Source: Clostridia bacterium (GTDB lineage: Bacteria; Bacillota; Clostridia; Oscillospirales; Acutalibacteraceae). From it: a stretch of DNA of 64,000 nucleotides. Shown piece after piece: positions 35,941 through 37,627 of the stretch. The stretch covers positions 47,575 to 111,574 of the forward strand of contig JAFSBZ010000045.1 in the NCBI GenBank assembly GCA_017437005.1, given 5' to 3'. Position numbers and translations under genes: made by a program. Each line of letters opens with the position of its first letter. The stretch's first letter is position 1. The notes below the pieces were generated by a model. It had not been told where the DNA came from. It searched no databases and worked only from the letters and a program-made list of their open reading frames with translations.

Positions 35941-36291
35941 TTATTTTCCTTTTGCTGTATTAATCGAAGAAATAAGCATACGACGAATTGCGCCACAATT
36001 ATTTTTCAGTTTGTCATATTCGACCTTTGAAAGATAGCTGGTTCTAAAAAGTAGTTCGAGCCAATACTCAGACTCATAACATTCTTTTAATGCAATTTGC
36101 ATTTTGTAAACAAAGTCCGTTGAGCTATAAGCATATTTTGATTCATGAATATTTGCACCAATTGAAGTGCCACTTCGCAATAATTGATTTGTTAGAACTG
36201 ATTCGCGTTTACTTTCTTTAATCGTTTTACAAATATTCACAATATCAACAGCAAAATCTTTTGCTTTATCAAGCATAATACTTTCTGCCAT
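35941..36291 (-). CDS. Four-helix-bundle protein (S23/23S-rRNA-intervening-sequence family)
   Basis: A 116-residue all-helical protein: 'DKAKDFAVDIVNICKTI', 'SVLTNQLLRSGTSIGANIHESKYAYSSTDFVYKMQIALKECYESEYWLELLF', 'SKVEYDKLKNNCGAIRRMLISSI'. The motif R-S-x-x-S-I-x-x-N-I-x-E is the family hallmark. Relatives are encoded in 23S rRNA intervening sequences, beside diversity-generating retroelements (Avd), or alone in genomes as here. Function is unsettled; Avd relatives bind nucleic acid. It follows a 184-base hairpin array and AAGGAAGTG. No rRNA or reverse transcriptase is near. It may be co-transcribed with the isocitrate dehydrogenase gene upstream. Confidence 0.88.
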   Translation of the reverse strand: MAESIMLDKAKDFAVDIVNICKTIKESKRESVLTNQLLRSGTSIGANIHESKYAYSSTDFVYKMQIALKECYESEYWLELLFRTSYLSKVEYDKLKNNCGAIRRMLISSINTAKGK

Positions 36292-36310
36292 ATGTAAACA
36301 CTTCCTTTTT

Positions 36311-36480
36311 AGCTAAATTGCCGCTATAACGGCAGCGAAATTGTAAGCTATGCTTACAGCTAAATTACACTTCGTGTAGCTAAATTTAATTCGCCATTAG
36401 CTGACCAAAGGTCAATTTAGCTTGAGGCACTCAAATTTAGCGTGTTGCAAACACATTTAGCTCGCGTCAGCGAATTTAGC
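36311..36480. repeat. Mirror-symmetric array of seven short hairpins
   Basis: Seven different small stems are separated by a constant 8-9-base word. Left half: AGCTAAATT or AGCGAAATT (36311, 36334, 36358, 36378). Right half: its reverse complement AATTTAGC(T) (36414, 36434, 36455, 36473). Stems with loops on the plus strand: GCCG/CGGC (36320-36333), GTAAGC-TAT-GCTTAC (36343-36357), ACAC-TTC-GTGT (36367-36377), GACC-AAA-GGTC (36403-36413), TGAG-GCA-CTCA (36423-36433), GTGTT-GCA-AACAC (36442-36454), TCGC-GTCA-GCGA (36462-36473). Five loops are three bases. The array begins inside the stop codon of the dehydrogenase gene and ends at the ribosome site of the four-helix-bundle gene. Confidence 0.85.
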
Positions 36481-37627
36481 TCAACGTTTTTATTGTTTCC
36501 ATTACATATTCACTAAACTGAGCACAAGTTGCACCATCAGTATCACCTGTAACCACAACTTTTTTCTCGGTTTCGGTGCAGATAGAAAGCGCTTTGTTTA
36601 GTTTTTCGGCCTGAGCCTTAAAGCCAATATGATTAAGCAACATTTCAGTAGCCTTGAATATACTTGTCGGGTTAGCATAACCGCCTATACCCTGCTCAAT
36701 CATACGTGGCGCCGAACCGTGAATTGCCTCAAACATAGCGTAACGGTCACCAAGATTCATACTGCCCGCAGTACCTACGCCGCCCTGAATTTGCGCCGCT
36801 TCGTCGGTGATAATATCACCGTAAAGATTAGGCATTAAAAAAACTTCAAATCCACTGCGGATTTTTTCGTTTACAAGGTTTGCTGTCATAATGTCGATAT
36901 ACCATTCATCAGCATTAATTTCGGGGTATTCTTTTGCAATTTCATGGCAAATTTCCGAGAACTTACCGTCAGTTTTTTTCATAATATTAGCCTTGGTTAC
37001 AATAGCAACGTTCTTTTTGCCGTTATTACGCGCGTATTCAAAGGCAGCGCGCGCTATACGACGTGTACCGGCATTGGTTGTCACCTTAAAGTCAAAAGCC
37101 AATGTATCGGGAATTTCAACACCTTTAGAGCCTAATACATACTCACCCTCGGTATTTTCACGAAAGAATGTCCAATCAATGTTTTCTTCGGGTACACACA
37201 CGGGGCGCACATTTGCATAAAGGTCTAATTCACGGCGCATTGCAACATTTGCACTTTCAAGTGTGCCACCTTTAAGCGTGGTTGTTGGTCCTTTGAGTAT
37301 AACGTGACAAGATTTGATTTCTGCCAAAACATCGTCCGGTATTGCCTTATTTTTTGCAATACGATTTTCAATGGTAAGACCTTCGATAGTTTTAATTTCT
37401 ACCTTACCGCTTGTAACCTCGTCTTTAAGCAAAAAACGAAGTAATTTTTCAGACTCGGCTGAAATTATGGGGCCGATACCATCACCACCGCAAACACCTA
37501 TGATAATTTTATCAAGCGAGCTGTAATCTATAGCGCCGCTATCTTTTTCCATTTTTTGCTGACGCGCAATCTGCTCACGCAAAAGCTGCTCAAAATGCGA
37601 TACCGCACTACTTATATACTTTTCCAT
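36476..37627 (-). CDS. icd: Isocitrate dehydrogenase (isocitrate/isopropylmalate dehydrogenase family)
   Basis: A 383-residue metal-dependent beta-decarboxylating dehydrogenase. 'GVCGGDGIGPIISAESEKLL' near 48-67; substrate loop 'KGGTLESANVAMRRELDLYANVRPV' (about 118-142), where the S-x-N and R-R-E-L-D residues resemble isocitrate rather than isopropylmalate enzymes; 'NLYGDIITDEAAQIQGGVG' and 'FEAIHGSAPRM' complete the site. Two bases after aconitase and downstream of a Re-citrate synthase, so it should make 2-oxoglutarate for glutamate. Cofactor (NAD or NADP) cannot be told with confidence. Confidence 0.88.
   Translation of the reverse strand: MEKYISSAVSHFEQLLREQIARQQKMEKDSGAIDYSSLDKIIIGVCGGDGIGPIISAESEKLLRFLLKDEVTSGKVEIKTIEGLTIENRIAKNKAIPDDVLAEIKSCHVILKGPTTTLKGGTLESANVAMRRELDLYANVRPVCVPEENIDWTFFRENTEGEYVLGSKGVEIPDTLAFDFKVTTNAGTRRIARAAFEYARNNGKKNVAIVTKANIMKKTDGKFSEICHEIAKEYPEINADEWYIDIMTANLVNEKIRSGFEVFLMPNLYGDIITDEAAQIQGGVGTAGSMNLGDRYAMFEAIHGSAPRMIEQGIGGYANPTSIFKATEMLLNHIGFKAQAEKLNKALSICTETEKKVVVTGDTDGATCAQFSEYVMETIKTLS

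Follow-up and report, generated by a model that had tools for sequence, protein, structure and literature searches.

Proteins of the IVP/S23 family were first found in the intervening sequences (IVSs) of 23S rRNA. Two other groups of small bacterial repeats are relevant here: the STRR of cyanobacteria are heptameric simple repeats, and REP/RAYT elements and the MITEs of IS200/IS605 are short hairpins that also occur as copies without an ORF. In the part of PMC4990558 available to us, the Coxiella IVS is given with tandem heptamers (GACAGAT) before its gene, and that IVP gene is described as decaying. Heptameric repeats have been reported as TAACTGA (PMC4679880) and as GGGAATC/GGGGATT (PMC4692102); within the accessible portions of these two papers, the terms S23, four-helix, and intervening sequences have no occurrence. 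In PMC10910872, the legend to a figure about CRISPR discovery names a 23S rRNA IVP. IVS elements with an IVP gene are already known. A search of open papers, in which subscription journals and preprints were mostly not covered, turned up no report that ties IVPs to heptamers, whether as heptamer arms or as hairpin ladders beside IVP genes.

The window, i.e., the whole stretch of 64,000 nucleotides that was analyzed, contains such a gene directly beside an array of short words and hairpins (Table 1). By its profile matches the gene encodes a 23S rRNA intervening-sequence protein (IVP) of family PF05635; the initial annotation had likened a four-helix-bundle gene to these proteins, and the PF05635 and TIGR02436 matches bear this out. 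The IVP shows no domain besides PF05635, and its sole solved relative by sequence is PDB 2rld, an entry with five chains (E 3.7e-31). A defense gene of the PADLOC list was ruled out, as there was no match. In the relatives tested, the IVP is under strong purifying selection, dN/dS being 0.02-0.08 in 10 of 13 chosen pairs and saturated in the remaining three.

Table 1. Features of the array, the IVP gene, and icd in the window, listed in forward-strand order; words are given in gene direction.
Feature	Position	Strand	Basis
IVP gene, 116 aa, PF05635/TIGR02436 four helix bundle protein	35941..36291	-	Pfam E 1.5e-27; TIGR02436 E 2.2e-31
Short stretch from last word to IVP start codon, containing AAGGAAGT as putative ribosome site; no promoter room	36292..36311	-	sequence read
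Last array word, ATTTAGC	36312..36318	-	sequence read
Hairpin h6, stem 5 bp, loop 6 nt	36319..36334	-	
Variant word, ATTTCGC	36335..36341	-	
Hairpin h5, stem 7 bp, loop 3 nt	36342..36358	-	
Word ATTTAGC	36359..36365	-	
Hairpin h4, stem 5 bp, loop 3 nt	36366..36378	-	
Word ATTTAGC	36379..36385	-	
Center: partial word and stretch complementary to h0 left arm	36386..36401	-	
Hairpin h3 (apex), stem 5 bp, loop 3 nt	36402..36414	-	
Word GCTAAAT	36415..36421	-	
Hairpin h2, stem 5 bp, loop 3 nt	36422..36434	-	
Word GCTAAAT	36435..36441	-	
Hairpin h1, stem 5 bp, loop 3 nt	36442..36454	-	
Word GCTAAAT	36455..36461	-	
Hairpin h0, stem 4 bp, loop 4 nt	36462..36473	-	
First array word, GCTAAAT, contains icd stop codon 36476-36478	36474..36480	-	
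icd, isocitrate dehydrogenase, host gene, same direction as unit	36476..37627	-	PF00180 E 2.7e-67

Between the IVP start codon and the end of the icd coding sequence, seven perfect, mutually different hairpins alternate with copies of a heptamer, which stand in mirror order over 36312-36480: seven copies are exact and one is a variant, and one half has GCTAAAT where the opposite half has ATTTAGC. On the plus strand, GCTAAAT begins at 36312, 36359, and 36379 and the variant GCGAAAT at 36335, and ATTTAGC begins at 36415, 36435, 36455, and 36474; the two halves are divided by the 16-nt center, 36386-36401. The coordinates and architecture of the initial annotation, seven non-identical hairpins spaced by a constant word with its reverse complement in the other half, hold. 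Its five 3-base loops are also there (the other two loops have 4 and 6 bases), but the stems measure 4-7 bp rather than 4-6 bp, and the word, although constant as claimed, is best taken as a heptamer, the 9-letter form originally proposed including one flanking letter on each side. A CRISPR-like array is ruled out because the variable parts are perfect hairpins, not non-palindromic spacers, and because the order is mirrored.

The array folds better than any of 200 dinucleotide shuffles, both as RNA (z -4.80) and as DNA (z -4.58). In the predicted RNA fold, words of opposite halves pair and the hairpins protrude on both sides, giving a ladder of four-way junctions with one apex hairpin. The complementarity between the center and the h0 arm is found by eye in six of seven AGCTAAAT-family arrays with a full left half (L002, L076, L077, L078, L080, and L081, not L079), and a pseudoknot of the center with the h0 arm, seen by eye only, may form. 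No RNA family scored above the gathering score when Rfam was run over the window.

The site of the unit was compared among relatives. Of 61 genomes of the genus, 56 contain icd; the comparison used 30 icd loci, one of them the window's own. In three of the other 29 (L193, L196, and L197), a terminator-like hairpin comes directly after icd, then the convergent glycosyltransferase gene that also neighbors icd in the window, and both array and IVP are absent; reading 95-420 nt past the icd stop codon revealed no array in any of the 29. The array and the IVP gene are one unit inserted exactly at the icd stop codon, as had been proposed: that codon falls within the first word, and these relatives have empty sites. 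The unit, i.e., words, hairpins, and IVP gene, is about 540 nt long; its right edge is approximate, and the terminators there differ.

A purely local oddity is ruled out, since arrays recur beside IVP genes. Six PF05635 genes were found in the window's own genome and all six have a word array directly upstream, with at least five different words; five of these arrays are hairpin ladders, and that of L003 is a long degenerate inverted repeat made of heptamers. L004 and L005 have the heptamer ATGAAAT in common, whereas the words of the other IVP loci in this genome differ. PF05635 is present in 27 of 40 relatives. Across loci L001-L075, the best 6-mer (counting both strands) occurred at least five times in the 260 nt upstream of 51 of 73 IVP loci, against one among 244 tiles of the window and 12 among 586 other tiles; further arrays account for some of these 12. 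A perfect mirror order with at least four words was likewise found in 53 of the 73 upstream regions, compared to 7/244 window tiles and 32/586 other tiles. By the script criteria, 22 of 153 loci in the Oscillospirales set have no array; among these 22, an array is visible by eye in L015, L017, L034, L049, L080, L081, and L082. In part of the relatives' loci the array was judged by eye, and the set includes near-copy loci (L179/L181, L084/L085, and L161/L162). Genes and arrays thus go together widely, and the initially suggested link of array to ORF is strong; it is not one-to-one, however, because arrays without the gene exist.

Such arrays were found in several places. When the window and 262,406 bases at 20 contig starts of the own genome (6,899 of these bases being N) were scanned for words in mirrored arrays, only the window array emerged; a whole-genome pattern search with the window word gave two more, outside that sample and both without the gene (C14:47859-47990 and C48:606-668). 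Six arrays within L001-L075 have no IVP gene directly after them. Among the arrays compared by blastn, the nearest to that of the window is itself gene-less (L278; 92% identity over 77 nt, 86% over 87 nt) and lies at a different site in genome G009, whose icd site (L196) is empty. G009 contains three arrays of the window word, and none of its seven IVP genes has that word. At its apex the L278 array (L278:1465-1715, on contig C31) has an additional palindrome of roughly 60 nt. Two species have the same gene-less array at orthologous positions, L276 (G000, contig C14) and L279 (G009, contig C139), between flanks that are 78-83% identical; its hairpins are kept, and two-sided changes can be seen by eye in some stems. 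Compensatory change in stems rests on this by-eye reading and on mismatch counts, since gaps in the hairpins were too many for pairs to be counted when six same-word arrays were aligned with MAFFT.

The layout around the gene also varies. Word-hairpin arrays lie on both sides of the gene in L082 and L083, whereas in the window both arms are upstream. In L015 and L283 the left half of a ladder is directly repeated, one copy on either side of the IVP gene, and recombination between these copies would leave a solo array. L015 and L283 are alike, although their genomes belong to different kinship classes. The ladder plausibly consists of the heptamer arms, their words spaced out by hairpins; solo arrays would be the same minus the gene.

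The word is a heptamer, or an octamer in one clade. Among 300 spacers separating maximal hairpins, the commonest length is 7 nt (123), against flat controls; 5 and 3 nt come next among odd lengths (46 and 30), as expected if the ends of words extend the stems. In the octamer clade (L006, L031, L068, and L070-L075) the spacer is 8 nt in 27 of 41. In left halves 68 of 115 loops have the form TNC or TNNC, in right halves 71 of 154 the form GNA or GNNA, so the loops are mirrored as well; the octamer clade has the reversed polarity, GNA-like left and TNC-like right.

Period 7 is not confined to ladders. Lag-7 runs lie beside the IVP gene in 70 of 193 upstream and 41 of 192 downstream regions, compared to 45/1598 and 2/319 control tiles; lags 5, 6, and 8-11 gave at most three upstream and four downstream. 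The median run is 4.9 units upstream (48 of 70 within 4-6) and 4.6 downstream (22 of 41), the longest being 23, and ladder arms have three or four exact words in 54/70 left and 56/70 right halves. Inverted 7-mers common to both flanks averaged 8.9 in own pairs versus 2.2 in mismatched pairs; a threshold of at least two is weak by itself, since it is reached by 34 of 37 own and 654 of 1332 mismatched pairs. All seven plasmid loci, picked from 26 plasmid records for organism spread, cyanobacteria and Bacteroidota included (Treponema, Bernardetia, Monoglobus, Euhalothece, Nostoc, Dolichospermum, and Planktothrix), have the word before the gene and its reverse complement after it. The Nostoc plasmid has its word nowhere but beside the IVP gene, and there are thus no scattered footprints there. 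The Bernardetia plasmid (L243) has about 15 perfect tandem copies of ATTAGTG upstream of its IVP gene. The family was present in 29 of 149 genomes of a Bacillota draw; of its 25 loci with an IVP frame (L188-L190 have none), 19 show heptamer runs or a ladder and six no array by the script criteria. L176 and L178 look by eye as if they have longer periods.

In sequence comparisons the word follows the phylogeny of the IVP. A tree of 70 IVPs places together sister proteins with the same or one-step words, and nearest-neighbor IVPs had a common word 5-mer in 87 of 114 cases (shuffled mean 14.9, maximum 33 in 2000 shuffles), including 33 of 46 neighbor pairs more than 0.3 apart. These 114 loci were kept after skipping 45 with fewer than five exact words, a short upstream region, a short or interrupted protein, or an identical protein. 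Linkage or co-inheritance of array and gene could alone give the same pattern. Word copies inside one array change together, which pairing alone would not require. Constant words with variable hairpins, which the initial annotation called the reverse of an ordinary repeat, are not unique to this locus: the word is a heptamer that differs by lineage and tracks the protein.

The places where units land include structured RNAs. Among the Bacillota loci, 23S rRNA is the host of five IVP units and RNase P RNA of two; in the latter (L179 and L181, 1229-2003), the RNase P RNA gene is interrupted by the unit with its heptamer arms, and the RNase P model is matched from end to end around it. Within 420 nt upstream, 31 of 60 loci have a tRNA or tmRNA gene, all 42 such genes pointing in the same direction; there was none within 420 nt downstream in any of the 60. 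Two arrays (L058:453-800 and L078:934-1280) lie downstream of tmRNA genes.

We consider it somewhat probable that the unit belongs with the IVS/IVP elements as a minimal selfish insert whose IVP recognizes its own heptamer arms at the DNA level, and we infer both recognition and movement from the comparisons above. A ring of five four-helix bundles, as in solved relatives, would bind the arms as DNA, at about 4-5 words per arm. Bound IVP could hold the two arms together and thereby mark or protect the unit for movement; it could also repress or tune its own expression. In the lineage of the window, hairpins would have been inserted between the words, and on extrusion they would loop out and leave the heptamers side by side, so that the ladder would be read as two tandem heptamer arms. 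Cutting and joining would be supplied by another enzyme, because the IVP shows no other domain. Gene-less arrays would be copies that rely on IVP supplied elsewhere. Several observations count against this model: co-inheritance alone could explain the common phylogeny of word and gene, some IVP loci have no array, some arrays have no gene, G.T exceeds A.C in 23S and RNase P RNA hosts, and the Nostoc plasmid has no scattered copies of its word. The match between a pentamer and about five words per arm is suggestive only; copies number 4-5, and some arrays are much longer. A wider proposal is put forward tentatively, and we would not call it probable: PF05635 may be a large family of sequence-specific readers, each with its own heptamer, one word per subunit of a five-fold ring, and two inverted arms per unit. 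Dispersed heptamers (in cyanobacteria, Beggiatoaceae, Xanthomonas, and others) might then be footprints or dependants, and the ladder a derived form in which extruded hairpins bring words into register.

The ladder might instead act as RNA, a structured icd-IVP leader recognized by the IVP or by RNase III for autoregulation or for excision like that of a 23S IVS. The window array lies between icd and the gene, all in one direction with no room for a promoter, and its RNA fold is strong; the window IVP has no promoter-like site before it and is probably read together with icd. RNase III excision of a 23S IVS is also reported in the available part of PMC4990558. However, the DNA fold is as strong as the RNA fold relative to shuffles, and 75 of 147 loci, compared with 15 of 273 controls, have a promoter-like site in the 75 nt preceding the IVP gene, which means that the array is often outside the gene's own message. 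Pairing itself gives no G.U excess. Inter-word hairpins (269, of which 247 are distinct) have 1431 Watson-Crick pairs out of 1500, with 17 G.T, 11 A.C, and 41 others; arms around the gene have 978, 37, 36, and 68, respectively (36 of 42 loci); and long type-B arms 738, 16, 16, and 58 (34 loci). RNA under selection should favor G.U over A.C, and the balance therefore argues that pairing is not mainly selected as RNA. A post hoc split gave 24 G.T versus 7 A.C in 23S and RNase P RNA hosts (including the near copies L179/L181) and 13 versus 29 elsewhere, and in structured RNA hosts pairing at the RNA level may be of importance. We regard the leader as an unlikely explanation overall; RNA-only structure was set aside as the main reading on the even mismatches, and the RNA-protein unit initially envisaged is less likely than one at the DNA level, the promoter-like site that often separates array from gene elsewhere pointing the same way.

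Movement in trans by a Y1-type transposase, with a MITE- or REP-like hairpin element as the moving part and the IVP gene as passenger or cargo, is improbable. It would suit the existence of gene-less arrays, the GNA-type loops, which fit folding of single-stranded DNA, and four Y1 transposase matches in the genome, two of them above the cut-off (G000:C28:425-781 and three weaker places, one of them C39:14226). Yet there is no ladder beside two of the Y1 loci (L284 and L285) or in the part of C1 near a third, word identity tracks IVP phylogeny, and IVP genes keep heptamer arms across phyla without hairpins. Least probable of all is that the array has no function, its heptamers arising by replication slippage and its hairpins by template switching at a mutation-prone insert with an unrelated protein: nearly all pairs in the stems are perfect (1431/1500), as template switching gives, tandem words can slip, and the accessible part of PMC4692102 ascribes an excess of heptamer repeats to the polymerase, but only IVP flanks show period 7 in this way, most arms have 4-5 copies, the order is mirrored, words are constant by lineage, and hairpins at L276/L279 were kept between species while some stems changed on both sides.

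Taken as a DNA-level insertion, the unit can be set against the systems described at the outset and one other. Avd of diversity-generating retroelements has a homologous pentameric four-helix-bundle fold (PMC10053308). In contrast to those elements, the own genome (85% complete) gave no match to reverse transcriptase PF00078; a retroelement using its own or a resident reverse transcriptase was ruled out on that result. REP/RAYT elements and IS200/IS605 MITEs differ in that the window unit has no Y1 gene and a different protein, and repeats the spacer word, not the hairpin. With the 23S IVS bearing an S23/IVP gene (Salmonella, Leptospira, and Coxiella; PMC4990558, seen in part) the unit has in common the protein family, a small selfish insert, and inverted repeats. 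It has a PF05635 gene and an insertion with empty sites, but its gene is not between inverted arms and its location is not 23S rRNA: it lies at an mRNA stop codon, both arms are upstream, and the words are parted by hairpins. In the relatives tested, purifying selection also acts on its IVP gene; for the Coxiella gene, that paper describes decay. The ladder is an unusual design, with constant words and variable hairpins, and may show a protein reading words that are apart in sequence and adjacent in structure. Heptameric simple repeats resemble IVP arms in their period of 7, their intergenic position, and their occurrence in several phyla, and on cyanobacterial plasmids heptamers bracket IVP genes; a rule of an IVP gene plus inverted arms of a lineage-specific heptamer would join the function of IVP/S23 proteins to the origin of bacterial heptamer repeats.
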